A stretch of DNA of 26,629 bases from a virus, in the IMG/VR virus record IMGVR_UViG_3300005613_000352, positions 1-26,629 of that record. The stretch is one strand, 5' to 3'. Position numbers and translations under genes: made by a program. This document shows positions 1,981-18,159 of the stretch, piece after piece (the stretch's first letter is position 1; each line of letters opens with the position of its first letter). The notes beneath the pieces were generated by a model. It was not told the origin of the DNA. It saw only the letters and a program-made list of their open reading frames with translations, and made no database searches.

Positions 1981-2475
1981 TCAAATTTCATTTTGCCAAT
2001 CTCTAATGGCTTTGCAATTTTTACATAATAAAATAGATCCTTGCAATTCTATCATTGCTCTTTTTAATGACATGTTTTTAATTTTACCAATTGAATAAGA
2101 CTTACCGTTTTTAAAAAATTCATAAATTGGAATTGGATAGGAGTTTTGACAATCTTGGCAAATAGCGCCGAAATGTTCTATTAATGTTTCTAGTTTTTCT
2201 TCAAATTTAATTTTTTTTACTTCATCTTGACACTTCCTACAATAACTAAATGGCTTGGAGTTTTTTCTTAAATAAAATTCTTTTTTATCTTTTATTTGAT
2301 TGCATCTAGCACAGAATGCTTCATTTTCTTTTAACTCTATAATATAAGAGCGAGTGTTTCTGCCACCTAAAGGAGAGCACTCTAAACAAAATTTTCTTCC
2401 AGTGAGATTGTATATTTTACCTTTCTTCTTGATTTTATTAAGGAATTTCTTCTTACAGTTTTGGCAAATAGGCAT
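1981..2475 (-). CDS. HNH-family endonuclease-like protein with degenerate active site, antisense
   Basis: Start chosen at 2475 (complement), 164 residues. A perfect GGAGG lies 5 bases before this ATG, and it overlaps the ATG at 2487, which has no Shine-Dalgarno of its own. Six CxxC pairs are present: residues 4/7, 30/33, 55/58, 79/82, 106/109 and 151/154. The block RKFCLECSPLGGRNTR matches a known HNH group usually reading RKYCLECSPFGxHNT. The C-terminal part should read roughly LEFHH...LCANCHRxxH. Here it reads YEFFK...LLCKNCKAIRDW, so both the paired histidines and the terminal histidine are missing while the zinc cysteines are kept. It is the only gene on the minus strand and sits between neck and sheath genes, as free-standing homing endonucleases do. 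It may be an inactivated endonuclease or a zinc-binding DNA-binding protein. Confidence 0.65.
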   Translation of the reverse strand: MPICQNCKKKFLNKIKKKGKIYNLTGRKFCLECSPLGGRNTRSYIIELKENEAFCARCNQIKDKKEFYLRKNSKPFSYCRKCQDEVKKIKFEEKLETLIEHFGAICQDCQNSYPIPIYEFFKNGKSYSIGKIKNMSLKRAMIELQGSILLCKNCKAIRDWQNEI

Positions 2476-2487
2476 TTTGTCCTCCAT

Positions 2488-2668: not shown

Positions 2669-5203
2669 ATGGCAAATATTCCTGGCATTCTAGGTTATAT
2701 ACAACCAACGACCGTTTCAAGAGTAAGAACAGTTTCAAGGGCTGTTTCTATTCCTGGTGGGTTACGTATTCTCGCCGTTGTAGGAGAAGGCTTAAGGGAA
2801 GAGGTAATAATTGATTCTGCTGCTGGTGACGGCACTGATGGATTTAATCCAACTTTTACTGCAGAATCTGATGGATACGGAAGATTCTTTAGAGCTTCCA
2901 ACTATCCTATAATTTCTAATCGTTCTGAATTATATCTTAACGGCAGTGCTCTATCTATTTTAGAAGGAACTGTTGATGGCAGCAGTTTTTCTACTGAATA
3001 TGATGCAAAATTAGAAATTGCAACTGGTAAAATCGAACTTCAAGGGGCTTCTTTAATAGACCAAGGTGGCGCATATTATCTTGCAAATAGTAGCAATTCT
3101 GGCGACGGTTATCTTAGTGATATTACATTGGCAGACACAAATGCTCCAGCAGAAACTTGGACAGTTAGATGTACTGATACATTAAAAGATAGTTATGGTG
3201 CACCAATTCGCGGCCAAGCATCCTTTTTAGTTTCTGGCTCTGTTAGCGGACAGCTTTTGGACGAATATGGTCAACCATATATTTGGAAAAGTGATGGGAT
3301 CGCAATGAGTAATGGAATTCTTTCTTTTGCTATCCATAACATTTCTCCAAGCGCAGTTTTCCAAGTTGGAGATAGATTCTCTATTGGTGTTCAAAGCCGC
3401 GTTCTTCAAATAAACGATAATTTAGAACTTAGATATATCGCTTCTGCTGATGTCAATGATCCAGAAGCATTTACTGATCCAGTACAATTATTTGCAAAAC
3501 ATGGTTCTCCAAGTTCTACCAATACATTGTCATTGGCTGCACAAATGGCGTTTGAAAATGGTGCAACAAGTGTTTTGGCATTACAAGCAAAACCACCGCT
3601 TCCAAGAAAAATAACTGACATTGTGTTGCCCGCTTATAGTGCAACAGGAGGTACAAGCGGTGCTTCTGGAAATTCAGATCCTGATGATTTAATTTTTTAT
3701 ATCGATGATAATGGAAAGCCTGACACAGATACTCAAGTTCAATTTTTTGTTATAGGAACTGATGGGACTGAAACACAAATTTTTCCCAATAAGGTAGATT
3801 TCTATGATCCTGATATTACACAAGCTTTTGCCCAATATGAAGACAGTGGTGTATCTACTAATCTATTAGCTGAATTTATGGATCCGGGCCAAAGCGGATA
3901 TACATATAGTTATACAGTAGTAAGTGATGATAAAATTGAACAAGGTTCTAATGATGCAACCATTGCTCCAATTGGTATTGGTGACTCTGCTACAGTAACA
4001 GCTGCTTCTGCTCAGTTTGTTGCCGCTGATGTTGGAAAATATTTGGATTTCCATAATACATCAACTGCAAATTCTGGACGCTATCAAATTTCAGCAGTTG
4101 CAAGTGCAACTTCTGTTACAATTACTCGTGCTAGTGGCTCTTTTGTTTCTGAAAGTTCTGTAAGATGGCAGCTTTTGGCCTCTTCCGGAACATCACAAAG
4201 AATATTATTTACTACAGACTTGGCACTTACTGCTCAAAAAGGTCTTAAAGTTATGTATACAGATGAAGATGATGCAGATTTTTATGATGCTAACTGGGCC
4301 GATGCCCTTGATGCATTGGAAACACAAGATCTTCAAATTTTAACTATGTTTCCAACTCAAACATTTTCAGCAATTCAACAAGCTGGTAGAGTTCACTGTG
4401 AAAGAATGTCTTCTTCTTACTACAAAAGAGAAAGAGTTTTGATTACGGGAGCTTTAGAAGGTCTTACTGTTGCCAATGTTACCGGACAATCTTTAGCTGC
4501 TCCAGAAGACATTGGTGTTCTTGAAGGAATTCAAGGAGATGATGCATCTGAAGTGTTGGCTGGAAATATTGAAGATTTGGCCGATTATGGAGTTTCAAAT
4601 AGTTTCGGAGATTCTTTCCGTGTTATTTATATGTATCCAGATTCCATTGTTCGTGTAATTAATGGAACAAGGTCTACATTGCCTGGTTATTATATCGCAG
4701 CGGCTGCTGGTGGATATCTTGCAGGCGAAGCAAATATTGCCATGCCATTAACTTTTAAAACCCTTGTTGGATTTACTATTCTTAATAGCAAAGTATATAA
4801 ACAAGAAGAATTAAATAGTTTGGGTGACAATGGAATTACTGTTGTGCAACCAGTTACTGGTGGCGGCCGAGTGTTACATGGAAAAACCACAACTCAAAGC
4901 GGTTATGCAGAAGAAGAAGAGATTTCTATTGTGTTTATTAGAGATCAAGTTGCTCGTACAATGAGAACAAGTTTCCAAGCTTTTATTGGAAAACCAGAAA
5001 CTGACACCCTTGCTCCATCTCTTACTGCGCGTGCAATCAGTTTGCTTAATGCTTTTGTTTCTCAAAATCTTATTACCGCTTATCGAAACCTCTCCGTCGC
5101 TCGCGACGAAACAGAAGCTCGCCAATGGAATATTGTTGTAGAAGTACAACCAAATTTCCCAGTAAACTGGATTTTTATAGATGTCAGTGTTGGCTTATTC
5201 TAA
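2669..5203 (+). CDS. Contractile tail sheath protein
   Basis: 844 residues, ATG with a strong gggagga 8 bases upstream. The N-terminus (MANIPGILGYIQPTTVSR, then GGLRILAVVGEG) and the C-terminus (LTARAISLLNAF, TAYRNLSVARDE, then VVEVQPNFPVNWIFIDVSVG) are the signature ends of the gp18-like sheath family. In that family the terminal strands form the handshake mesh between subunits and the core ratchets during contraction. It is longer than T4 gp18 (about 660 residues), with beta-rich insertions around residues 90-230 and 420-510 that should decorate the outside. The gene is richer in GC (about 40% in sampled lines) than the endonuclease genes beside it. Its stop is 12 bases before the TTG start of the LAGLIDADG gene. 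Confidence 0.93.
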   Translation: MANIPGILGYIQPTTVSRVRTVSRAVSIPGGLRILAVVGEGLREEVIIDSAAGDGTDGFNPTFTAESDGYGRFFRASNYPIISNRSELYLNGSALSILEGTVDGSSFSTEYDAKLEIATGKIELQGASLIDQGGAYYLANSSNSGDGYLSDITLADTNAPAETWTVRCTDTLKDSYGAPIRGQASFLVSGSVSGQLLDEYGQPYIWKSDGIAMSNGILSFAIHNISPSAVFQVGDRFSIGVQSRVLQINDNLELRYIASADVNDPEAFTDPVQLFAKHGSPSSTNTLSLAAQMAFENGATSVLALQAKPPLPRKITDIVLPAYSATGGTSGASGNSDPDDLIFYIDDNGKPDTDTQVQFFVIGTDGTETQIFPNKVDFYDPDITQAFAQYEDSGVSTNLLAEFMDPGQSGYTYSYTVVSDDKIEQGSNDATIAPIGIGDSATVTAASAQFVAADVGKYLDFHNTSTANSGRYQISAVASATSVTITRASGSFVSESSVRWQLLASSGTSQRILFTTDLALTAQKGLKVMYTDEDDADFYDANWADALDALETQDLQILTMFPTQTFSAIQQAGRVHCERMSSSYYKRERVLITGALEGLTVANVTGQSLAAPEDIGVLEGIQGDDASEVLAGNIEDLADYGVSNSFGDSFRVIYMYPDSIVRVINGTRSTLPGYYIAAAAGGYLAGEANIAMPLTFKTLVGFTILNSKVYKQEELNSLGDNGITVVQPVTGGGRVLHGKTTTQSGYAEEEEISIVFIRDQVARTMRTSFQAFIGKPETDTLAPSLTARAISLLNAFVSQNLITAYRNLSVARDETEARQWNIVVEVQPNFPVNWIFIDVSVGLF

Positions 5204-5215
5204 GGGAGATGGTGT

Positions 5216-6823
5216 TTGAAAAAAGAAAGATTGAGGCAGCTGTTAAATACGCATTCTATTAAAGAAATTTCGATTTTAGAAAATATACCATATTCAACTG
5301 TTTGGTACAATGTGAAAAAACATAGATTAACGGCTACAAGACCACTAATCCACAAATATACGCTCTTTGATAATTTTACTTCCGAAAGCTGCTATTGGGC
5401 TGGATTTATAGCTGCTGATGGAAATGTTTTAATTAGGAAAAAAAACGGAACATATAGATTATCTATTAAATTAGCTAGCAAAGACCTACAGCATTTAGAA
5501 AAATTTGATCAGGTAATGGGTTGTGAGAGTAGAGTGTCGACAACTAAATATAAAATGGCACATATTTCTTTTCATTCTAAAAAACTTATTGAAAATATAG
5601 TAAAAAATTTTAATATTGTTCCAAAAAAATCTTTAATTTTGCAACCACCTGTAAAAATGCCTCAGGAATTTAATAAAGATTATATTCGAGGCTATTTTGA
5701 TGGTGATGGGCACATAGGTTATGTTAGTGGCACATATTGTAATTTCAACATTGTTAGCGGTTCATTGCGCATATTGGAATGGATTAGATCGGCACTGATC
5801 GAAGAAAATTTAGTTAATGAAAAATTAAAAATTTATCAAAAAAAACATAATTTATATTGTATAGATATAAATAGCCAAGTTTCTTTAAATATTTTTAAGT
5901 GGCTGTATACTGATTCAAAATGCAATCTTCGTCTAGACAGAAAACATAAAATGTATCAAGAAATTACACAAAAAATAGAAAGTAAAATACAATATTATGA
6001 GCAACAAAATAAAAGAGTTCCATCAGGCTGTAAGGGGTTTAATTTAAATTATAAAAAAATTTCTGAAGAATATTTGACTGGAAAACAATTAAAAGAATTA
6101 TCTAAAAAATATAAAGTCTCTCAATGGACTCTGTTAGATAATTTTAAAAAACTTGGGATCAAAAAAAATAAAAAAAGAAGTCAAGATTCTGAAGTTTTTA
6201 AAATATTTACATCAGAAAGTTGTTATTGGGCTGGATTTATTGCTGCAGACGGTTGGGTTAATAAATATAATTTAGGAATTGAATTATCTATAAAAGACAT
6301 TAATCATTTGAAAAAATTCCGCTCTTTTATAAATAGTAATTGTGACATTTCAACTAGAAAAAAATTTTCTTTTGGTAAAATATTTAAATATTGCAATTTA
6401 TATATTTATAGTAAAAAAATGATTGATGTTTTAAAAGAAAATTTTAATATTGTTTCAAATAAATCGCTTGTTTATGTTATGCCAGAAAAAATTTCTAAAG
6501 ATATGCAAAAACATTTTATTCGCGGTTATATTGATGGAGATGGAAGTATTGGGTGGCACAAACATAATAATAAACCTAGAGTTCATGTTTGTTCTGGCTC
6601 AAAAAAACTCTTAGAACAAATTAAAAAAATTATTAAAGAACAAAATAAAAGAGCTGGGAACCCATCAATACTAAAAACAAAAAGTGGTAACTTATATACT
6701 CTTTCGTTTATGGGACATCAGGCATATGATATTTTAAATTGGCTTTACAAAGATAGTACAATTTACTTAGATAGAAAATATGAAAAATACATAGAGGTAA
6801 TATCGCGATATGACTTATCCTAA
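5216..6823 (+). CDS. Free-standing LAGLIDADG homing endonuclease, internally duplicated (four motifs)
   Basis: 535 residues from a TTG start; gggag at 5204-5208 gives correct spacing and no in-frame ATG fits. Two homologous halves are visible. Each has an N-terminal helix-turn-helix-like segment (residues about 15-38: IKEISILENIPYSTVWYNVK; about 283-313: EEYLTGKQLKELSKKYKVSQ) followed by a two-motif LAGLIDADG domain. The motifs are WAGFIAADG at 61-69, RGYFDGDG at 158-165, WAGFIAADG at 338-346 and RGYIDGDG at 436-443. Acidic residues are present in all four. Each half ends with WLYxDS...LDRK. Such enzymes cut long asymmetric sites and copy themselves into allelic phage. It lies between the sheath and tube genes and overlaps the tube start by 14 bases. 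It is not an intein, because the sheath is complete and stops before it. Sampled lines are near 23% GC, below the sheath. Confidence 0.92.
   Translation: MKKERLRQLLNTHSIKEISILENIPYSTVWYNVKKHRLTATRPLIHKYTLFDNFTSESCYWAGFIAADGNVLIRKKNGTYRLSIKLASKDLQHLEKFDQVMGCESRVSTTKYKMAHISFHSKKLIENIVKNFNIVPKKSLILQPPVKMPQEFNKDYIRGYFDGDGHIGYVSGTYCNFNIVSGSLRILEWIRSALIEENLVNEKLKIYQKKHNLYCIDINSQVSLNIFKWLYTDSKCNLRLDRKHKMYQEITQKIESKIQYYEQQNKRVPSGCKGFNLNYKKISEEYLTGKQLKELSKKYKVSQWTLLDNFKKLGIKKNKKRSQDSEVFKIFTSESCYWAGFIAADGWVNKYNLGIELSIKDINHLKKFRSFINSNCDISTRKKFSFGKIFKYCNLYIYSKKMIDVLKENFNIVSNKSLVYVMPEKISKDMQKHFIRGYIDGDGSIGWHKHNNKPRVHVCSGSKKLLEQIKKIIKEQNKRAGNPSILKTKSGNLYTLSFMGHQAYDILNWLYKDSTIYLDRKYEKYIEVISRYDLS
5375..6253 (+). 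repeat. Internal coding duplication in the LAGLIDADG gene (best-conserved copies at the two ends)
   Basis: Bases 5375-5422 and 6206-6253 encode the same 16 residues, beginning FTSESCYW and ending GFIAADG. They differ at 8 of 48 bases, and every difference is in a third codon position and silent. The similarity extends more weakly through the whole half-protein, about 277 residues apart. Confidence 0.9.
6801..6810. repeat. 10-bp perfect palindrome at the endonuclease/tube junction
   Basis: tatcgcgata at 6801-6810 is a perfect palindrome. It lies between the tube gene's Shine-Dalgarno (agaggt, 6793-6798) and its ATG at 6810, inside the last codons of the LAGLIDADG gene. It may be an operator-like or cleavage-related site, or chance. 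Confidence 0.3.
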
Positions 6824-7397
6824 AACAGGAAGTTTACTTTTCAGTAATGTTCAAACAGGTCTTTCTACACAAATAATTATTAAAGCTGGATTTAACACTA
6901 TTGGTGCAATTCAACAATTAAAAGTCAATCAACGGCGTGATATTAAAATTTGGGAAGAGATTGGAACAGATGGAATTGTAGAAAGTCATCCAATTCATGC
7001 TGCGCAAGTTACTTTAGATGTAACGAGAATTGTATTTGATAATTTAAGAATAGCGGAAGCTTTTGGAAGAGGTTTTATTAATTTACAAGCTCAAAGAATT
7101 CCTTTTGATGTTCAAGTTATTGATACTTCTAATACTAAAGGAGAAATTATCAATTCCATAATTCATGTTTTTCATAATTGTTGGTTTAAAGATGTTTCGA
7201 CATCATATCAATCAGAAAATTTTATTATTACGGAAACGGCAGCATTAAGTTGTGAATATGTAACAACAACAAAACGAGCAGAAAGCGCTGTAGAAGGCGG
7301 TGCTCGTGGAATAACTTATGAATATGATAGTATAGAAAGAGAAACAGATACAAAAGGTCGCCGTGGAAGATTCGATTCCACTGGTATGGAGCCTTAA
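6810..7397 (+). CDS. Tail tube protein, copy 1
   Basis: 195 residues. The ATG at 6810 lies inside the 3' end of the LAGLIDADG gene (14-base overlap), with agaggt at 6793-6798 as Shine-Dalgarno, so the inserted gene carries the tube gene's ribosome binding site. It aligns end to end with the next gene (shared MxYPxTGS, TGLSTQI, GTDG, RIVFD, EAFxRGFIN, IPFD, NCWF). Size, soluble beta-rich content and position right after the sheath fit the gp19-like tube family, whose hexameric rings stack inside the sheath. The C-terminus (about residues 160-195) is charged and probably flexible. Which paralog is the major tube subunit cannot be told from sequence. Confidence 0.75.
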   Translation: MTYPKTGSLLFSNVQTGLSTQIIIKAGFNTIGAIQQLKVNQRRDIKIWEEIGTDGIVESHPIHAAQVTLDVTRIVFDNLRIAEAFGRGFINLQAQRIPFDVQVIDTSNTKGEIINSIIHVFHNCWFKDVSTSYQSENFIITETAALSCEYVTTTKRAESAVEGGARGITYEYDSIERETDTKGRRGRFDSTGMEP

Positions 7398-7424: not shown

Positions 7425-8063
7425 ATGGTTTATCCAAACACAGGTAGTATTTTGAATAGCCAAATTCATACTGGACTTTCTACCCAAATTAGCATTTTGG
7501 TCAACAATGAGCCAGTAGGAGCTATTCAATCATTAAGCATCACTCAAACAAGAAACCTTGCTAGAATTAAAGAGGTTGGAACTGATGGCGTTTTAGAAAT
7601 AGTTCCAGAAAGGGCCACAGAATATAGTGCAAATATTGAAAGAATCGTTTTTGACCGCTTGAGATTGCCAGAAGCTTTTTCTCGTGGTTTCATTAATATT
7701 AAATCTCAAATGATTCCTTTTGATATTTTAATTTTAGATCGTACCGGTGGGGGTCCAGGATCTGAAGGAGTTGTTAAACATCTTTTAATGAATTGTTGGT
7801 TTAATTCATATAATCCAAAATATGGTGCAGACAACTTTATTCTTTCAGAAAGTGCAACTGTATTTTTTGAAGATATTAGTTCAACTCTTGGAACATCTAA
7901 TAGTTATGCTGCACGTGGCGGCGAACGTGGTATTGCTCAGCAAACACACGAACGTGAACGTCTTACCGACACTAGTTCTGGCGGCATCGCTGGTGAAAGT
8001 GGCACAGGATTCAGAGGCACAATGGATTTCTCAGATCTTATTAATGCCGCTTTTGATGAATAA
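7425..8063 (+). CDS. Tail tube protein, copy 2 (paralog)
   Basis: 212 residues, ATG at 7425 preceded by ggagg. It is a clear paralog of the gene before it, roughly 40-45% identical by eye over the first 100 residues. It has a short glycine-rich insertion (DRTGGGPGSEG, near residue 105-115) and a longer Gly/Ser/Arg-rich C-terminus. A strong terminator follows within 10 bases of the stop, as expected for an abundant virion protein. Tandem tube paralogs could form two parts of the tube (for example bulk tube and a specialised ring) or a heteromeric ring. The divergence outside the core argues against a very recent duplication. Confidence 0.75.
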   Translation: MVYPNTGSILNSQIHTGLSTQISILVNNEPVGAIQSLSITQTRNLARIKEVGTDGVLEIVPERATEYSANIERIVFDRLRLPEAFSRGFINIKSQMIPFDILILDRTGGGPGSEGVVKHLLMNCWFNSYNPKYGADNFILSESATVFFEDISSTLGTSNSYAARGGERGIAQQTHERERLTDTSSGGIAGESGTGFRGTMDFSDLINAAFDE

Positions 8064-9070: not shown

Positions 9071-11382
9071 TGGCTGATGATTTTAATATTAAAGATTTTT
9101 TTAAACTTGATCCAAGTTTCAATGAAGAAATTAAAAAATTGCAAAATATTGTTAATTTAGCTAAGGAAGCGTTGGCAGAAGGCATAAAGAATATGCTTCC
9201 TGAAAAAGAAATAAATGCATTGAGAAAAAATCTTGAAAAAGTAGAAGGAAATTTAAAAGAGTATAAAAACGCTTTAACAGAAGCGCAACAAGCACAGGCG
9301 AATTTTTTAGATTTGCAAAATGGATTAGCAAAATCTTTTGGAGCAACTGGAAGTGTTGTAAATACTTTTTCTGACCATTTGCAAGGTTTTGTTAGTGGAA
9401 TTTCTAAATCTGCACACGTTTTGGGAGCTATGGGCAATGCGACATACAAAGATTTTGTTAATCCTATGAAAGATGCAGGCTTAATAGTATTGGGCGCCAT
9501 TCCTGGTTTTAAATCTTTAGATGAAGCAATGCAAAATTTAAAAGATACTCAAAATGTTGCAAGAGTTTCTTCTGTTTTATTAGGAGAAAGTTTAAATGTT
9601 GCAAATAAAAAAGCCAAAGAATATCCTGCTACTTTAAGAGAATCTGCTGCTGTTACAGGAATTAATGCTAAGGAACTTAATGATATGAATACTGCTTTAC
9701 AACAGGTTCCTGGCGCTTTAGACCTAACAGGAAAGGGGTTTGCAGACATTGCCGCCTTGCAAGGAAGATCAATACAAAAAACAGCAGCATTGGCTACCGT
9801 AATGCGTTCTTTTAAAATGACAGGAACAGAGGCCGCTCAATTTGCTGCAGAAGCATGGTTTGATTTTGGACAAACTACAGAAGAAACAATCAAACAAATG
9901 GGTAGAATTGCTAGTGCATCTAAACAAACTGAAGTGGATAGCAAAACGGCAAGTGATCAAATTAAGACTGCAAGTAGTAGTTTGGCACTTTTTGGACAAA
10001 AAACTGGCGCTGCTTCTGAAGTTTGGACAACATTTATGCAAAACTTAAGTAATACTGTCCCAATTAATGAAGTTCAAAAAATGGTTACAGGACTTATTCA
10101 AAGTATTGCTAGTATGAGCGTAGAATCCCGCGCTTTTATGGGAATGATGAGTGGAATTACTTCCGGAAAATCAGCTTTAGGTGGGGCTTTAGAGTTGGAA
10201 TTGGCTTTAAGACCAGGTTCTGATGAAGCTGCCAAAAATGATGGCTTGCAAAAACATATGAAAGGTTTAACTGACACTTTGGCCCGTTTCGCTGGCGGTC
10301 AAATTATCACTTTAGAACAAGCAGCTCATAACCCACAACTTGAAGTTCAATTTCAATTGCAAAGGCAAATGTTGGGAAAATTAACTAATATTACAAATCA
10401 AGAGCAACAAAATAGGGTTTTAGAAGTATTGAAAGGTGTTCAATCAGGTGGCATGGCTGCAATTGAAGGAACTCAAGCTTTGCAAGATGTTTATAAACAA
10501 GGAACAACAATTGCAGATCAACAACTTTCTGCATTAAAAAGAATTGAACAAGTGTTAAGAGTGTTTGTTGGTGACCAGGCAGATAAACAATTAGAGGCCG
10601 CCGATTATTCTTTAAGGTCAGAGAAGCTAAGTTCAATAGGTGCCGCTATAGGAAGAAGCTCTCAGTCTGGTTTTACTGAAACAGAACAAGCTTCTTTTGC
10701 TATGACGGATTTAGGAGAAATGTTTAAAAACGCTCCATCAAAATTTGCTAATGCTGTAGAAATGTCTAGAGGTGAATTGAAAAAAGAAGATATGCAAAAA
10801 ATGCTCTTAAGTTTTTCTAAGGGACTTTCAGGTGAACGTACAAAACTAGTAGAAAATCATGTTCGTATGCCAGGAGAAACAGAAATACAAGGTAATATTC
10901 CAAAAGAAAGAGATTTTAAACAAAATATATTAGAATATGCCGCTAACCTCCCAACTGAAAAAACAACTAATAATATTAATTCAGTTTCTGAAGAATTTAA
11001 TGCACTAGCTTTAAATATGAGTAAAATAAATGCTCAATTGAAAAACTTTTCTTCCGCTCCACCTGTAGAACTTAATGAAACTATTATGCCATTTGATAAG
11101 GTTAATGACTCTTTACAATTGGTTGCCAATTCATTAAATGAAACTAAAAATAATGAAATTTTTACTACAGAAGTTCCTAACTTAAATCAAGAAAATAAAA
11201 CAATAACTAATCCAATAAACGCAAGAATTGAAAATATAAAAAATGGTAATATTAATGTTGAAATTACTGTAAATGGACTTTTAAATGAAAACTTTAATAA
11301 ATCTGCACTTGAAAATGTAGGTAGAGATACAGGAGAAGCATTAAGGAGAGTTCTCGGAATAAATAATGGCGAGGAACAATAG
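9070..11382 (+). CDS. Tape measure protein
   Basis: 770 residues. ATG at 9070 overlaps the preceding stop (TAATG), with aagggg at 9055-9060. It begins with long predicted coiled coil (residues about 17-95, e.g. EIKKLQNIVNLAKEALAEGI) and continues as an Ala/Gln/Ser-rich helical protein. Mildly hydrophobic stretches occur around 110-150 (GLIVLGAIPGFKSL). The C-terminal 170 residues are Asn-rich and low in complexity. It lies directly after the frameshifted chaperones and is helical, coiled-coil rich and of this size, which is the standard signature of a tape measure. At about 0.15 nm per residue it would predict a tail of very roughly 115 nm. I see no lysozyme or peptidase motif inside. Confidence 0.85.
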   Translation: MADDFNIKDFFKLDPSFNEEIKKLQNIVNLAKEALAEGIKNMLPEKEINALRKNLEKVEGNLKEYKNALTEAQQAQANFLDLQNGLAKSFGATGSVVNTFSDHLQGFVSGISKSAHVLGAMGNATYKDFVNPMKDAGLIVLGAIPGFKSLDEAMQNLKDTQNVARVSSVLLGESLNVANKKAKEYPATLRESAAVTGINAKELNDMNTALQQVPGALDLTGKGFADIAALQGRSIQKTAALATVMRSFKMTGTEAAQFAAEAWFDFGQTTEETIKQMGRIASASKQTEVDSKTASDQIKTASSSLALFGQKTGAASEVWTTFMQNLSNTVPINEVQKMVTGLIQSIASMSVESRAFMGMMSGITSGKSALGGALELELALRPGSDEAAKNDGLQKHMKGLTDTLARFAGGQIITLEQAAHNPQLEVQFQLQRQMLGKLTNITNQEQQNRVLEVLKGVQSGGMAAIEGTQALQDVYKQGTTIADQQLSALKRIEQVLRVFVGDQADKQLEAADYSLRSEKLSSIGAAIGRSSQSGFTETEQASFAMTDLGEMFKNAPSKFANAVEMSRGELKKEDMQKMLLSFSKGLSGERTKLVENHVRMPGETEIQGNIPKERDFKQNILEYAANLPTEKTTNNINSVSEEFNALALNMSKINAQLKNFSSAPPVELNETIMPFDKVNDSLQLVANSLNETKNNEIFTTEVPNLNQENKTITNPINARIENIKNGNINVEITVNGLLNENFNKSALENVGRDTGEALRRVLGINNGEEQ

Positions 11383-11391
11383 GAGATAATT

Positions 11392-12210
11392 ATGCCCTTC
11401 GATGATAGAGCTAAAAACGACCCATCTTACCAAAACAATACAGGAACCGAATATAATTCAAGACAAGGAAACTTGTCTTTGCCAGATATTATACAACAAA
11501 ATCCACAAACACCAAAGGCAAAAAGACAGCGCCAGTTGGCGCGATGGCGCATTCCGGCTCTTGGTTTTATTGATATGTATTTAAATCCCCAACAGATTCA
11601 AATTCAAGAAAGAAAAATTATTACAAAACAGCGTACTGCTGGAGGGTACTTGATTCAATATTATGGCGAAGAGTTAATGGAATTAACAATTAGTGGTAGC
11701 ACAGGAGCAAGTGGTATAGAAGGAATAAATATTTTAAGAAGGGTATATAGGGCCGAACAAGAAGCTTTTCAAAAAGTAGAACAAACTCTTGCAGATAGAA
11801 TCAATAGTATGACAAGACAAGGATCTTTAAGTAGTCTTTCTAAACGTGCTCAAGAGGATGGAATTGGAGGGCTTGCCGGAAGTTTAATTAGTGATACCTT
11901 AGGAGGGGCAAAAAACCCTCCATTATTACCTACTTTGGGTTCTCTTGCGGCAGCTGTAGAATTTTATTATCAAGGTTGGGTGTTTAAGGGATACTTTATG
12001 AATTTTGGCGTAACTGAATCTGTACAGAATGGAGTTGGTGTATTTGATTATAATATGTCATTTACTGTAACGGATCGAAGAGGTTTCCGCACCAATAATA
12101 TGCCATGGCATCGACAGCCTGCTACCATTGATACAGCTTCTGGTAAAATGAGTAATTTTAATTCTGCAAACAATGACATTACACCTTTAAATTTTAGCGG
12201 TGAAAAATAA
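11392..12210 (+). CDS. Baseplate hub / tube-baseplate adaptor-like protein
   Basis: 272 residues, ATG at 11392 with aggag 5-6 bases upstream. The N-terminal 45 residues are polar and probably disordered. Then comes a conserved-looking block (ALGFIDMYLNPQQIQIQE, RTAGGYLIQYYGEELMELTI, SGSTGASGIEGINILRRVYR). Its pattern 'NPQQ...RTxGGY...YGEEL..L.ISGSTG' is common in proteins coded between tape measure and hub in contractile-tail phages. A second strand-rich block follows at about 185-240 (VEFYYQGWVFKGYFMNFGVT, VFDYNMSFTVTDRRGF). The likely role is to join the tube to the hub, like T4 gp48/gp54 or a LysM-less XkdP-type protein. This comes from context and pattern only. Confidence 0.55.
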   Translation: MPFDDRAKNDPSYQNNTGTEYNSRQGNLSLPDIIQQNPQTPKAKRQRQLARWRIPALGFIDMYLNPQQIQIQERKIITKQRTAGGYLIQYYGEELMELTISGSTGASGIEGINILRRVYRAEQEAFQKVEQTLADRINSMTRQGSLSSLSKRAQEDGIGGLAGSLISDTLGGAKNPPLLPTLGSLAAAVEFYYQGWVFKGYFMNFGVTESVQNGVGVFDYNMSFTVTDRRGFRTNNMPWHRQPATIDTASGKMSNFNSANNDITPLNFSGEK

Positions 12211-12249: not shown

Positions 12250-13275
12250 ATGAAAATTTGTGAAAAATGTGGCAAAGAATGTAAAACATTAAGAAAAAAA
12301 TATTGTAATTCTTGTTATAGAAAATATTTGCAATTAAAAAAAGAATGTTATTTTTGTAAAAAAATAAAATTTGTTAGAAAAACAACAGCAGAAGGATTTG
12401 TTTGTGATTTATGTTATGAAAAAAATTTTCGTCAAAAAAAAGAATGTATAATTTGTAAAGAAAATAAAATAATTATAAAAAATTTAAAAAAAGGGCCAGT
12501 TTGCAGTCTTTGTTATAAAAAATATTATCAACCAAAAAAAGAATGTATATTTTGTAAAGAAAATAAAACAATTATAAAAAATACAAAAGAAGGTCCAATA
12601 TGTAAGCTTTGTTATAATAAACATAAATTTTCTTATAAAAAATGTTTTAAATGTTTAAAAAATGGTGTTATTGTAAAAAAAACAAAAGATGGCTTAGTTT
12701 GTAATGCTTGTTATATAAGATATTATAGAAAAAAAGAAAAATGTATTGAATGTAATGAGTTAAAAGTTGTTTCAAAAAGAACAAAAAATGGACCAATATG
12801 TGCGAATTGCAATGTTAAAAAATATCGTAAAAAGAAAATATGTACTATTTGCAAACAAGAAAAAATTATTTTAAAAGTTGAAAATAATGAAAATTTTTGT
12901 AAAGTATGTTATATAAAAATAAAAAAACAAAAAGATATTTCTTTTTATGTGCAAGAAACATTAAGAAATCGAATTAGAAAGGCTTTTAAAATATACAGCA
13001 AAAATGGTAAAACGAAAACGTCAGATGAGTATGGAATAAATTATCAAGCGATAGTGGAGCATTTAGGTCCATGTCCAGGGGACCGCGACCTATATCACAT
13101 AGATCACATTTTACCATTATCTGCGTTTGATTTTAATAATTTAACACATATTAAGGCGGCGTTTGCACCCGAGAATCATCAGTGGTTAAAGGTGGAAGAA
13201 AATCTCAGTAAGAATGCGAAGTATGATGACAGGAAATTAGAAATTTATTTAAAAAAGTTTGAGGAAAAGATATAA
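12250..13275 (+). CDS. HNH endonuclease with seven zinc-ribbon modules (putative homing endonuclease)
   Basis: 341 residues. A taa stop lies in frame nine bases upstream, so this ATG is the first start; its Shine-Dalgarno (aggaag) is very close and probably weak. Residues 1-225 consist of seven CxxC...CxxC modules. The first has C4/C7/C19/C22. The next six start at C33, C66, C99, C132, C165 and C198, an exact 33-residue period, and their second pairs start at C52, C85, C118, C151, C184 and C217. Each unit resembles KKECIxCKENKxIIKNTKEG followed by PxCxLCY. Residues about 230-325 form an HNH nuclease domain with YHIDHILPLSAF (H283, D285, H286), PENHQWL (N309) and EENLSKN, so the catalytic set looks intact. 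The stop abuts the hub ATG. Base composition changes sharply between array and nuclease parts. Confidence 0.88.
   Translation: MKICEKCGKECKTLRKKYCNSCYRKYLQLKKECYFCKKIKFVRKTTAEGFVCDLCYEKNFRQKKECIICKENKIIIKNLKKGPVCSLCYKKYYQPKKECIFCKENKTIIKNTKEGPICKLCYNKHKFSYKKCFKCLKNGVIVKKTKDGLVCNACYIRYYRKKEKCIECNELKVVSKRTKNGPICANCNVKKYRKKKICTICKQEKIILKVENNENFCKVCYIKIKKQKDISFYVQETLRNRIRKAFKIYSKNGKTKTSDEYGINYQAIVEHLGPCPGDRDLYHIDHILPLSAFDFNNLTHIKAAFAPENHQWLKVEENLSKNAKYDDRKLEIYLKKFEEKI
12346..12909 (+). repeat. Zinc-ribbon coding array, six units of 99 bases
   Basis: The six regular modules repeat with a 99-base period in frame, from the codon of C33 to the codon of C220. Cysteine positions match exactly in all six. 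The residues between pairs drift, so this is an old, selected repeat rather than recent slippage. The region is about 12-25% GC in sampled lines. Confidence 0.85.
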
Positions 13276-16200
13276 ATGAGTATAATTTTTAGTTCTAATC
13301 TTGATGTTGATGGCCAGAGCAGTTTAACGGGTCAAGCAGTATCTGATACACTTAGTTGGATGGAGTTTGGGGAACCAAATCGTCGTTCTAATATGACATC
13401 TGATATTGCACGTATTCGTGATGGCATTACGGATGTGGTTCACAAGTTACAAGGGGAGAATCAAGAAAATTTTGATAGAAGTTATATTGGTAGTGGTAAA
13501 AAGCTTGTTGTTGAGGGGAGTCATATAGAAGGTGGAAAAGTTTCTCCATTAGAAGAGGCCAACATTAAGCAAGTTTATACGCAGACTCCAAATGTTAGTG
13601 TAGTATTTAAAAAGAGAGCATTTTCTTCATTAGCTCACTTATATGATGCGTCAATGATGGACAAAGCAGAGTTATGGTTGATGCGAGCTACAAAAAGATT
13701 AATTGAGAGAAAATGTTTTATTATGGCGGAATATGAGCGCTTGGTAAAGATAGAACGCATGGCAGATGTTGGTTCTGGAATAGCTGCAATAATGAGTTCT
13801 TTAGTATCTGCATGGATAGATGATGAAATGGATTTCAGTGCGCTTGATATTGGTGGATTGGTGAATCCAAATAAAAGGACGTCTACCAGGGAATTAGAAA
13901 AATTAATTTTAGCACGTAGGCCAGTTAAAACTTCTACATATTTTATAGATCCTGAGGAACCAGAAATTGGAGTTATGGGGCGTGGGTCTGGTGCTTTTGA
14001 ATTTACAACGATAGTCGATGTTTCTACAAGTTTAGATTTAGATGGAAATGGTGATTGCAGATTAAAAATTGAAGATCCTTATCATATTTTATTTGTTACA
14101 GAAGAAGACATTGAGACTGTTATTAGGGAGACAGCAGAGGCATCATTTTCAAATCCTCTTAAAAGTAGAAAGTTGATTTCTTTGTTGACTAGTGCACAAG
14201 ATGGTGATGAACGCCTTTCTGAAAGCAGGAGATCGAGGGGAGTTAGTGATATAACTTTTAATGTAGATTTAGGTTCTAGTTCTGGTGCAACAGCAATTAT
14301 TGATGCAATTGGATTTCCATTAACAACAAGCAATTTGGATGACGTTCCCTCTAATCAAGCTTTAACGCAAGCTGAACAGTCTGCTTTTAGAAGTGTCATG
14401 ACTGGATTAAAAGGTTATGCTGAAGCTGTTCGTTTAAATTATTTGCAAGGCCAAGATAGCACAAAATTACAAGATGACCGCGAATCTGCAGATTATGTTA
14501 GGCAAAAAATGCGTTTATATTATTTAGGTAAAAGCATTATTCAACCAATGGATACTATAAATGTTTTTATGTCTGGTAACACGAGACGTGCTGGAGAGGG
14601 AGAAGATGTAGATGTTGCTGGTGATGTCGCAACATTAGATGGGGCCATTAAAACTGCTGCCAGTGTTTTGTCTCACTATCGTTCTGATGGAGAATTGGGA
14701 GTTGGGGTTGATACAGCCTTAATTCAACAAGAGTTTGAACAATTTAAACAATATGGAAAATCATTCTTATCTTTTGAAGATTTTAAAAAATTAAGAACGA
14801 TTCAGATGACGACAGATGAAATGACTCATGTTTTTGGTGGGTTAATTTTAAGTTCTTCTGAAACTTATAATGCAAGCAATGGCACATATGTATTAAGTGT
14901 TTCAGCTGGTTCTAATATGGAATGGCTAAAAGTTTCTAGATATAATGCTCAGCCGTCTTTAGATCAGACACAAGGTTTAGTTTATGATCCTTTTACTCCG
15001 TTCCAATTTGATGTTGATCCTGTCACAGGTTTACCGATTGGATCTCCGCAATTATTACCTGAAAACAAAAGGATTATTCAGAGCGCAACGGCCAATGGAG
15101 CTAGTTGTAGAGATTTAGAGAACCCACCTCCTCCTCCATTATATTATACTTCTGGCCCTTTAAGGGGAAAGAGAGTGTCTTTAAAAGACTTTGAAGATCA
15201 GTTAAGCTCTGATTTAAAGATGGTTGGTCAAAATATATCTAGATTATTCCAAGATGCTCCAGGATTAAAATATCGTTGGAAAAATGGAATTATGTCTGCA
15301 ATTTATGATATAGGTACAACAAATTCACAAACAGGAAATTATGCGACCTATGAAGAATTAAGAAGAGATGTGGGTTTACCAGTTTCTAATACACCATTTG
15401 ACAATATGGATGCAGCAAATATTATTTCTATAATGGTAACCGGCCAACCGTACAATTTTTCCACTTTTTTAAGAGCTGCCGTTGGAAATACAACATATTC
15501 ATTAAACACAACTTCAAATGTTCAAAAAACATATTTGGCTTCATTATTAGATTTGCAAAAATCTTTTATAAAAGTACATGGTAATTTTGAACCTTATAAA
15601 ACATTAACCATTAGCCCTGCGGATGCAGCGAGGGCAATGTATTTACAAAATCAATTAACTGGGGCTTCTGCAGAGCTGACACAATTGAGAGGGAGTTTTG
15701 CTGGCATTTCTGACAAAATAGCTAATATTAATGGCACTGATAACCCAACTTTTCAATCTTTAATTGATCAATTAAATAGTAAAAAAACATCTATTAAAGA
15801 AAGCATTGAAGAAGCTCAAGAAAAATTTTCTATGTTGTTGGCTTCGGGATCTCAATTAGAAAATAATGTAATTCATATTGCTGGAAATGATGTAAGCTTT
15901 GAATTAAAAGATAAATTTGCCAAATTTTCTAAGATTTTTGGAGACCGTTTATTACATGCAACAATGAAGAGAAAAGAAGATGTTGTATATAATAGAGACA
16001 AAAATTTTCTGATTATATCTGATGAGTATGATAAGGATTATGACATTCAAGCTTTTGTTTTATTATTAAAACAACAGTTAGCAGATATGTGGAAAAGTAC
16101 ATGGCAGCCTGTCTTTGAATTGTGTCAAAATGTGGCGAAAATTTTAAATTTTGAATTTTATTGCAATTCTCAAGGAAATTTGGTTTTTAGACCGCCCCAA

Positions 16201-18159
16201 TATAATAGAACGCCAGCATCTGTTTTAACAGCAATGTTGAGTTATAATCATATGTCTGGCATTAAAGTGTTTCCAGATTTTTTGTTAAAGTTGTTTGCAA
16301 CTAGAGAAGAAAGTTTATTGCGAGACATTAATGTTATTGAGTGGGAAATAAAACAAGATGCTGCCTTATTAGGATATACTACTTTTACAGATGTTCAACA
16401 ATTTATTTCAAGTCAAACAGGTTCTTTATTTTTGTTTTTATATGATCAAGATGAATTAAATTTAAAAAAAGTTATTCAAGGAAATCAAGTTTTAGATCCA
16501 GAAGAAAAATTTTCTCTGCTTAGTGTTATTAGGAGATCCAACCGGGCCGAAAGTGTTCAAACAATAAAAGGTCTTTTTACCTCTTCTGCTCAAATAGATG
16601 TATATAAACAATTGGTAGGACCCAATAGTATTAATTTACCTTCTAATAATAAATCTAAAAAAGATGCTTTTGAAAAAGCAAGTAAACAGCTTTCTATTTT
16701 GACGGGACAACCATTAAATAATATGCCAACTTATGAACAGAGAGAAGTTGGAGTCAAAAAGAATGGAATTTCTACTCCTGCTTCTGACATTTCTTCTATA
16801 ATTTCATCAATTTCTCAAAAAGTAAGTAGACGCGCTTCTTTGTTGAAAGTTTTAGATAAAATGTTAGAACAAAGCATTGAGATGCAAGAAATAAATGAAA
16901 ATGCACAATTTAAACTTGGAACAAAGCCTTATCAAAATATTATGAGTTTATTTTCTTTTGGAGATGATAAAGAAACTTCAGGAATATATGATAGACTTAT
17001 TGAAGATGATTCCAGGGACGCTATTGGTCATATGTCAGGTTCAAGATTTGTTATTAGAGAAGAGCATATTATAAGTTCTACTTTTAATGAAAAACCACCA
17101 ATGATGACTTCAGCAGTTGTTACGGGAACTGAACCTTTAATTGGAGAAAGTGATGGGAATGTGGCTGGAATCCCAATACACAAAGCTTTTACCGTTGATT
17201 TTGACATGTGGAGGCAATATGGTTGGAGAGCAGAGTCGGAATTCCATAAGCCATTCTTTTGGAGTGCAGATAAACAATCAGCTCCATATGGCGTTATGTT
17301 ATTATCTAGGCAAAGAAAAAATATTGTTACCGGTACAGTTCAAATTATAGGAAATGAATTTTATCAAGTTGGTGATGTTGTATATGTTTCTCCAAGACAA
17401 ATGTTATATTATGTTAATAAAGTTTCACATAATTTTTCCTATGAAGGAAGATTTACTACCACTTTGGATTTAGTTTATGGGCATCCCGTAGGGGAATATA
17501 TTCCAACTCCTTTTGATATGATTGGAAAATTGTCTTTTAGTAAAACTATGTCTCAAAATTCTTTTAGGGTTAGGAGAGAAAAGCCTTCTTTAAATCAATC
17601 GTTAGCGGTTATTAGATTTTCTAAAAATGATTTTGCTTCAAATGCACGTTCTGCTTTTTCTTCCATGTTGGGTGGAAATTTTGGGGCAACTAATTTTAAA
17701 AAATTAATAAATTCTGTTGTAGTTGCAAACGGTTATTTAAATCCCAATGATGTTTTAAATAGTCCAAAAATATTTATTATTTCATATGCTGGAGATGAAA
17801 CTATACAAGAATATAGAAGACAAGCTGTTGAAAGGTGGCTGAGTCAACCAGAAAGTCCAATCTCTGCCGCTAATGGAGAGGGAATCGGAGGACTAGGCTC
17901 TGATTTTATGCCAAGTATGTCTTCATCCGGGGTGGGGCAAGATGATTTATCTGGTTATGTTGTTGACACAAATCTTATTAAAAGTGGACACATTCATTTA
18001 TGTTTGCCAGATGGAGAACAGTTTACAGATGTTGAAAGGGACTTATTGGAAAAATATTATGCTGCTCCTTCACGTGAAGCTAGATTAATAGATTCGTCTT
18101 TGAAAAATGTTATAGAAATAAAATTAATTCAACCACCAGCTGGAGGTTGGCCATGGTAA
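13276..18159 (+). CDS. Giant baseplate hub protein (gp27/late-control-D-like C-terminal region)
   Basis: 1627 residues. ATG at 13276 directly follows the HNH stop; its Shine-Dalgarno gagga (13261-13265) lies in the end of the HNH gene. Residues about 1-900 are helix-rich with no family I recognise, with a coiled-coil stretch near 780-855 (ARAMYLQNQLTGASAELTQL). Residues about 940-980 (QPVFELCQNVAKILNFEFYC, then NLVFRPPQYNR) and about 1300-1415 (FYQVGDVVYVSPRQMLYYVN, then FTTTLDLVYGHPVGEYIPTP) match the strand patterns of gp27 / phage late control D hub domains, which form the torus holding the spike. T4 gp27 has about 390 residues, so this is some four times larger. The spike gene follows with a 7-base overlap, which supports the hub call. 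Confidence 0.7.
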   Translation: MSIIFSSNLDVDGQSSLTGQAVSDTLSWMEFGEPNRRSNMTSDIARIRDGITDVVHKLQGENQENFDRSYIGSGKKLVVEGSHIEGGKVSPLEEANIKQVYTQTPNVSVVFKKRAFSSLAHLYDASMMDKAELWLMRATKRLIERKCFIMAEYERLVKIERMADVGSGIAAIMSSLVSAWIDDEMDFSALDIGGLVNPNKRTSTRELEKLILARRPVKTSTYFIDPEEPEIGVMGRGSGAFEFTTIVDVSTSLDLDGNGDCRLKIEDPYHILFVTEEDIETVIRETAEASFSNPLKSRKLISLLTSAQDGDERLSESRRSRGVSDITFNVDLGSSSGATAIIDAIGFPLTTSNLDDVPSNQALTQAEQSAFRSVMTGLKGYAEAVRLNYLQGQDSTKLQDDRESADYVRQKMRLYYLGKSIIQPMDTINVFMSGNTRRAGEGEDVDVAGDVATLDGAIKTAASVLSHYRSDGELGVGVDTALIQQEFEQFKQYGKSFLSFEDFKKLRTIQMTTDEMTHVFGGLILSSSETYNASNGTYVLSVSAGSNMEWLKVSRYNAQPSLDQTQGLVYDPFTPFQFDVDPVTGLPIGSPQLLPENKRIIQSATANGASCRDLENPPPPPLYYTSGPLRGKRVSLKDFEDQLSSDLKMVGQNISRLFQDAPGLKYRWKNGIMSAIYDIGTTNSQTGNYATYEELRRDVGLPVSNTPFDNMDAANIISIMVTGQPYNFSTFLRAAVGNTTYSLNTTSNVQKTYLASLLDLQKSFIKVHGNFEPYKTLTISPADAARAMYLQNQLTGASAELTQLRGSFAGISDKIANINGTDNPTFQSLIDQLNSKKTSIKESIEEAQEKFSMLLASGSQLENNVIHIAGNDVSFELKDKFAKFSKIFGDRLLHATMKRKEDVVYNRDKNFLIISDEYDKDYDIQAFVLLLKQQLADMWKSTWQPVFELCQNVAKILNFEFYCNSQGNLVFRPPQYNRTPASVLTAMLSYNHMSGIKVFPDFLLKLFATREESLLRDINVIEWEIKQDAALLGYTTFTDVQQFISSQTGSLFLFLYDQDELNLKKVIQGNQVLDPEEKFSLLSVIRRSNRAESVQTIKGLFTSSAQIDVYKQLVGPNSINLPSNNKSKKDAFEKASKQLSILTGQPLNNMPTYEQREVGVKKNGISTPASDISSIISSISQKVSRRASLLKVLDKMLEQSIEMQEINENAQFKLGTKPYQNIMSLFSFGDDKETSGIYDRLIEDDSRDAIGHMSGSRFVIREEHIISSTFNEKPPMMTSAVVTGTEPLIGESDGNVAGIPIHKAFTVDFDMWRQYGWRAESEFHKPFFWSADKQSAPYGVMLLSRQRKNIVTGTVQIIGNEFYQVGDVVYVSPRQMLYYVNKVSHNFSYEGRFTTTLDLVYGHPVGEYIPTPFDMIGKLSFSKTMSQNSFRVRREKPSLNQSLAVIRFSKNDFASNARSAFSSMLGGNFGATNFKKLINSVVVANGYLNPNDVLNSPKIFIISYAGDETIQEYRRQAVERWLSQPESPISAANGEGIGGLGSDFMPSMSSSGVGQDDLSGYVVDTNLIKSGHIHLCLPDGEQFTDVERDLLEKYYAAPSREARLIDSSLKNVIEIKLIQPPAGGWPW

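Follow-up and report, generated by a model that had tools for sequence, protein, structure and literature searches.

What is a long array of regularly spaced cysteine pairs, joined to a nuclease-like domain, doing between two conserved genes of a phage tail region? The question is raised by one gene of a 26,629-base virus record (the window, meaning the whole stretch of DNA analysed), a fragment of a contractile-tailed phage whose tail genes include a sheath gene (2669-5203, recognised by Pfam and PHROG), two tube-like genes, one long gene at the tape-measure position and a baseplate-type gene. The gene, its parts and its neighbours are listed in Table 1. Relatives of the encoded protein in IMG/VR came from a few records, namely G003 (340 kb), G005 (316 kb), G006 (302 kb), G001 (99 kb), G002 and G004.

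Table 1. Positions of the array-nuclease gene, its parts and the two genes around it in the window
Feature	Position	Strand	Details
Upstream conserved gene	11392..12210	+	272 aa; stop 39 bp before the array gene
Array-HNH gene	12250..13275	+	ATG start, 341 aa, intact; free-standing, homing-endonuclease-like
N-terminal degenerate module	12259..12315	+	C4/C7, C19/C22, spacer X11
Module 1	12346..12414	+	residues 33-55, CX2C-X15-CX2C
Module 2	12445..12513	+	residues 66-88
Module 3	12544..12612	+	residues 99-121
Module 4	12643..12711	+	residues 132-154
Module 5	12742..12810	+	residues 165-187
Module 6	12841..12909	+	residues 198-220
C-terminal nuclease region	12931..13272	+	residues 228-341; HNH-like
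GC3 breakpoint, codon 243	12976..12978	+	best split of third-position GC
Downstream conserved gene	13276..18159	+	1627 aa; ATG directly after the array gene's stop codon

The same region holds other genes that bear mention in their own right. A free-standing 535-aa LAGLIDADG protein with four LAGLIDADG_3 stretches is encoded at 5216-6823, between the sheath and tube genes; its site is filled in G006, in G005 (by two adjacent genes) and in L021, and is empty in G003 and L020. An antisense HNH-like gene (1981-2487, minus strand; phrog_2255) separates gene 1237-1980 from the sheath gene. L020, G003, G005 and G006 have homologs of it in the corresponding position; as it is conserved and not patchy, it is perhaps domesticated. 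The neighbouring tube-like virion genes at 6810-7397 and 7425-8063 are related to each other and are duplicated in relatives too.

The six regular modules of the array protein have their first cysteines at residues 33, 66, 99, 132, 165 and 198 and their second pairs at 52, 85, 118, 151, 184 and 217, so that the period is strictly 33 residues, and on the cysteine positions and the period the initial annotation was exact. The divergent seventh module that it placed at the N-terminus is confirmed as well, and is shorter than the others. When residues 1-230 are compared with themselves, just two lags exceed 20% identity, 33 (0.40) and 66 (0.38). Between modules, protein identity is 27-61% and DNA identity 54-77%, modules 2 and 3 sharing 61% of amino acids and 77% of nucleotides over the 33-residue unit; the repeat did not arise by chance. 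The array half and the nuclease half of the gene are unlike in synonymous composition, with the best breakpoint at codon 243, close to where array and nuclease meet, third-position GC rising from about 5% before it to about 30% after it (p about 0.0005, permutation within amino acids). Since most relatives have no such break, codon composition hints that the two halves of the window copy may have been joined recently.

To what fold do these modules belong? AlphaFold2, run on an alignment of 15 homologs, returned a model of the window protein with a mean pLDDT of 89 and a pTM of 0.50, a value that leaves the relative placement of the modules uncertain. Within the modules, all six regular units form a beta-hairpin and then a helix, whose start is at most one residue away from the third cysteine. 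A hairpin followed by a helix at the second cysteine pair is the treble-clef arrangement (PMC4999995), and the model predicts that the array modules are treble clefs of the GATA/LIM type, in which the same CX2C-hairpin-CX2C unit meets the start of a helix. The name zinc ribbon, under which the modules had first been described, is probably that of the wrong fold: in a ribbon both knuckles sit on beta-hairpins, and the predicted structure has a helix after every second cysteine pair. We infer that the array binds zinc.

LIM domains are pairs of treble clefs, and mostly bind protein. Tandem LIM domains are also the top solved-structure matches of the whole model in Foldseek, though weak ones (E 0.006 or worse), and the mixed PDB matches of the module profile include LIM proteins alongside zinc ribbons, with no significant sequence relation to GATA or LIM fingers. 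These matches would fit a LIM-like scaffold that binds protein or RNA and recruits the nuclease to the phage machinery. The LIM resemblance may, however, reflect nothing beyond a shared treble-clef fold, and the strong positive charge of the arrays, their fusion to HNH domains and the integrase partners described below point instead to DNA, so that we hold the scaffold to be very improbable. Net charge is positive in 19 of 19 arrays, the GC-rich phage G003 included, though the least basic of them (G003 310145) would be near neutral once the charge of the Zn(Cys)4 sites is counted. Both the model and the charge bear out what had been recognised at the outset, a modular array of basic character joined to a nuclease of HNH type, and the array probably binds DNA.

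The nuclease itself occupies the last 114 residues, which carry the motif YHIDHILPL...FAPENHQWL...ENLSK. Residues D285, H286, N309, H310, N318 and K321 are invariant in the 15 array proteins and in 19 HNH domains, and W312 is likewise invariant in 19 homologs; by analogy, conserved Asp, His and Asn residues such as D285, H286, N309 and N318 would play a catalytic-type role. Modelled alone, the region reaches a pLDDT of 93 and matches mostly HNH enzymes (Cas9 HNH, I-HmuI, Gme HNH and BrxU), all of them weakly, the solved structure of I-HmuI included (Foldseek E of at least 0.43, Z below 4), and the window protein does not reach the Pfam HNH model. We infer that this C-terminal HNH domain cleaves DNA.

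Profile searches place the domain in a large class of phage HNH proteins, among them those with the signature WHIDHI...NLQPLW..N..K. The latter have the same nuclease domain together with one zinc pair or lysine-rich helical repeats. Beyond this phage group the module count is 0-2, and lysine-rich helical repeats often take the place of modules; among relatives of the nuclease domain, arrays of at least three modules were found only in this phage group. No cellular copy with an array was found, the five genome contigs that matched (mostly DPANN archaeal bins) having the nuclease domain only. The array-less HNH relatives L056-L059 in the DPANN-binned contigs may themselves be viral, as the contig of L059 is exactly as long as the viral contig of L015. 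No relative in cultured phages was recovered by tblastn with whole-protein or array-only queries, a search of limited sensitivity for biased, Cys-rich sequence.

All 15 intact proteins (the window protein and 14 relatives) have the nuclease domain in common, and each has 3-7 modules by profile. Counting modules across homologs had been proposed as a check, and the number indeed varies. Spacing varies as well, mostly between 25 and 37 residues in the relatives, so that the exact 33-residue period, true of the window copy, is local to it and not a general trait of the family. A genome may hold up to six or more paralogs, and a number of copies are disrupted by stop codons, frameshifts or deletions. 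The tree of HNH domains is poorly resolved, almost a star. The HNH domains that share a junction in the window and G003 are not sisters in it, and the best match of the window protein is a G005 copy at another site; the idea that same-site copies at this junction form one clean orthologous clade is therefore not supported. Elsewhere, the array-HNH genes at the terminase junctions of G001 and G002 are mutual best matches. One member (G003 108084-109142) has a DUF723-like stretch ahead of its modules, a weak assignment (Pfam E 0.0064).

The two genes that flank the array gene have orthologs in L020, G005 and G006 that abut directly, with a TAATG stop/start overlap (gap -1), and in G003 the orthologous junction is occupied by a 245-aa array-HNH protein. 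The flanking genes belong to the tail region and are conserved and intact in all phages compared. A direct pattern search of viral contigs confirmed no relatives of the upstream gene, and its orthologs were reached instead by way of the sheath gene and whole-record searches. The pattern extends well beyond this one locus. When all array nucleases of G001-G006 are considered, 12 distinct junctions hold one in one phage and are clean in another, clean meaning a short gap with no ORF between the orthologs in a table read by hand. The window itself carries an empty site at 1233/1237, as the six-module nuclease gene of another HNH type (type B, see below) in G005 (44098-45090) sits between the orthologs of 739-1233 and 1237-1980. 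Recent co-conversion at the window junction was also considered, given the LNFSGE of occupied and the SFGG of empty alleles, but with saturated codons and five phages this is suggestive at most, and it was set aside.

Genes near array nucleases encode the terminase large subunit, a tubulin/FtsZ-like protein, DNA topoisomerase II, PhoH, an exonuclease, PrkA and a head protease, and homing genes of T4 and other phages likewise adjoin such genes (PMC2988022, PMC10448857). Several of these neighbours have features of their own. The G003 DNA topoisomerase II/gyrase B gene (109146-113243; L178:9146-13240) contains a LAGLIDADG-bearing intein and directly adjoins an array-HNH gene. In G003 a phage PrkA kinase gene, encoding an unusually long protein of 1078 aa, is followed by a DUF444 (YeaH-like) gene (306908-311892; L188:6908-11889), with an array nuclease between them in G003 only. 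The tubulin/FtsZ-like gene of G005 (117452-118885; L146:17452-18882) matches Pfam Tubulin at 6e-14 and, weakly, the PhuZ PHROG; it is flanked by array nucleases in G005, and in G006 the array nuclease is on its other side.

The window gene is not part of an intron or intein: its ORF stands apart, with a start and a stop of its own, the genes on either side are intact, and no Rfam match to a group I intron or other RNA element was found within the window. Precise insertion, empty and occupied alleles, decayed copies and neighbours of the essential-gene type together make the pattern of a free-standing homing endonuclease, and the array gene is, with good confidence, a homing-type mobile gene; the homing-like behaviour that the initial annotation had anticipated is borne out by the empty orthologous junctions. 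A nuclease that serves the phage, by packaging, exclusion of rival phages or attack on host DNA, would account for the array nuclease beside the terminase gene in two phages, and phage HNH genes in that position can aid packaging (discussed in PMC10448857). Such a role is quite improbable for the family in the face of its patchy distribution, its many paralogs and decayed copies, and the clean empty sites at the 12 junctions. Two of the shared sites are occupied in G006 by competing nucleases with other treble-clef arrays: at the terminase junction, where G001 and G002 have an array-HNH gene, the G006 occupant joins three DUF4379 fingers to another nuclease-like domain, and beside the sheath gene a decayed array-HNH in G003 has a DUF723-like repeat protein as its counterpart in G006.

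The modules are not confined to one nuclease. The module profile detects them on two further HNH types, one that matches Pfam HNH/HNH_5 (type B; G003 234277-235335 and G005 44098-45090) and one of the VDRxD type (type C; G003 310145-310726 and G003 10523-11398). The latter nuclease is common in cultured phages, where it has one or two other zinc pairs and no array. Searches of viral contigs for further type B and C relatives returned just the same records and one identical contig. The same modules, 6-11 in tandem, also occur on actinobacterial plasmid proteins annotated as site-specific integrases (e.g. WP_331746746.1). These stand third in operons of a tyrosine recombinase, an HTH protein and the 'site-specific integrase' (L197-L201); this third protein bears the array, has no Pfam match and is not a nuclease. 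Eight test proteins were each compared with 300 shuffles that kept the cysteines fixed, and in no case did a shuffle score as high as the real sequence, whereas an unrelated zinc protein of the window, used as a control, did not stand out; the likeness of the modules thus goes beyond their cysteine pattern. This distribution suggests that modules and cutting domains have been mixed and matched among phage nucleases.

What, then, might the array contribute? Among 40 modules with a spacer of 15, positions 11, 21 and 27 are the most variable. GATA-type fingers touch DNA through their hairpin and helix, and the variable positions lie in the corresponding elements of the predicted modules; by this analogy they are candidates for base contact, no more. 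In the strongest version of the idea, each treble-clef module would contact a set number of base pairs, and module number and order would set the target, which we regard as rather doubtful. The long recognition site that the initial annotation proposed for the array gains no support here, and a simple correspondence of one module to one subsite is disfavoured by the window junction itself, whose occupants have seven modules in the window and four in G003. The array could instead be a clamp, non-specific or specific for DNA shape, in which case the nuclease domain and homology-driven repair would choose the site and the gene would still home. The same seven-versus-four comparison fits a clamp well, as do the wide variation of module number and spacing among relatives, the general positive charge and the HNH relatives that have lysine-rich helical repeats and no array. 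That the module family recurs on several recombination and nuclease proteins, and that its variable positions map to the DNA-contacting hairpin and helix of GATA-type fingers, speak against it, and on balance we judge a clamp unlikely.

Phage homing endonucleases with repeated zinc fingers have been described before. T5orf172 enzymes bear repeated CapR, DUF723 or DUF4379-like fingers with shuffled domains, and like the array proteins they combine variable numbers of zinc modules with a nuclease and are inserted near essential genes (PMC10448857). The initial remark that no family with so many regular modules had been described was therefore too strong. The T5orf172 enzymes are, however, of the GIY-YIG type, and the window array is of another module family on another nuclease: the window protein matches no Pfam model for CapR, DUF723, DUF4379 or T5orf172 at E 1, nor the T5orf172 PHROG. 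T4 Mob endonucleases and I-HmuI likewise join an HNH domain to a separate DNA-binding region, and free-standing Mob genes lie between conserved genes (PMC2988022), but in Mob proteins the nuclease comes first and a distinct binding region follows at the C-terminus, whereas the array proteins have the nuclease at the C-terminus behind 3-7 modules. GATA and LIM fingers have the fold that is predicted here; the array differs from them in stringing together five or more modules of one type on a nuclease. Engineered zinc-finger nucleases also put a finger array on a nuclease, theirs being C2H2 fingers with FokI, where the array proteins have predicted Cys4 treble clefs with HNH. No Pfam, PHROG or NCBIfam model recognises the array of the window protein, and no description of this module family was found in the open-licence literature. 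That a phage homing nuclease can bear a modular array of fingers is already known; what differs here is the module family and the nuclease.

Taken together, homing and DNA binding by the array make up the reading that we consider likely, in which a homing HNH gene has its zinc-module array as DNA-binding part. On this reading, a group of large tailed phages would carry the gene as a free-standing homing endonuclease. In co-infection, its HNH domain would nick or cut the uninterrupted allele of a related phage, with the seven treble-clef modules holding or aiming the nuclease on DNA near the target, and repair from the occupied genome would copy the gene into the junction. The array would grow, shrink and be swapped between nucleases through recombination. 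Sequence specificity and gene conversion would be parts of such a scheme, and any module-to-base code would be a putative one. In T4, HNH homing enzymes make a single-strand nick, and free-standing enzymes may cut far from their own gene (PMC2988022), so that the target may lie elsewhere than at the insertion junction.

With the array, an unnamed repeat family joins the DNA-binding parts used by phage homing endonucleases, a family tied both to three HNH nuclease types and to integrase systems of actinobacteria. As one junction is known in occupied and in empty form, array length and sequence can be directly tested as determinants of the target. If the array is a modular reader, it would be the Cys4 treble-clef equivalent of zinc-finger and TALE arrays, re-used on various nucleases and recombinases by phages and by mobile elements of actinobacteria. 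Should the modules read DNA in register, they would constitute a third kind of natural programmable DNA-binding repeat.
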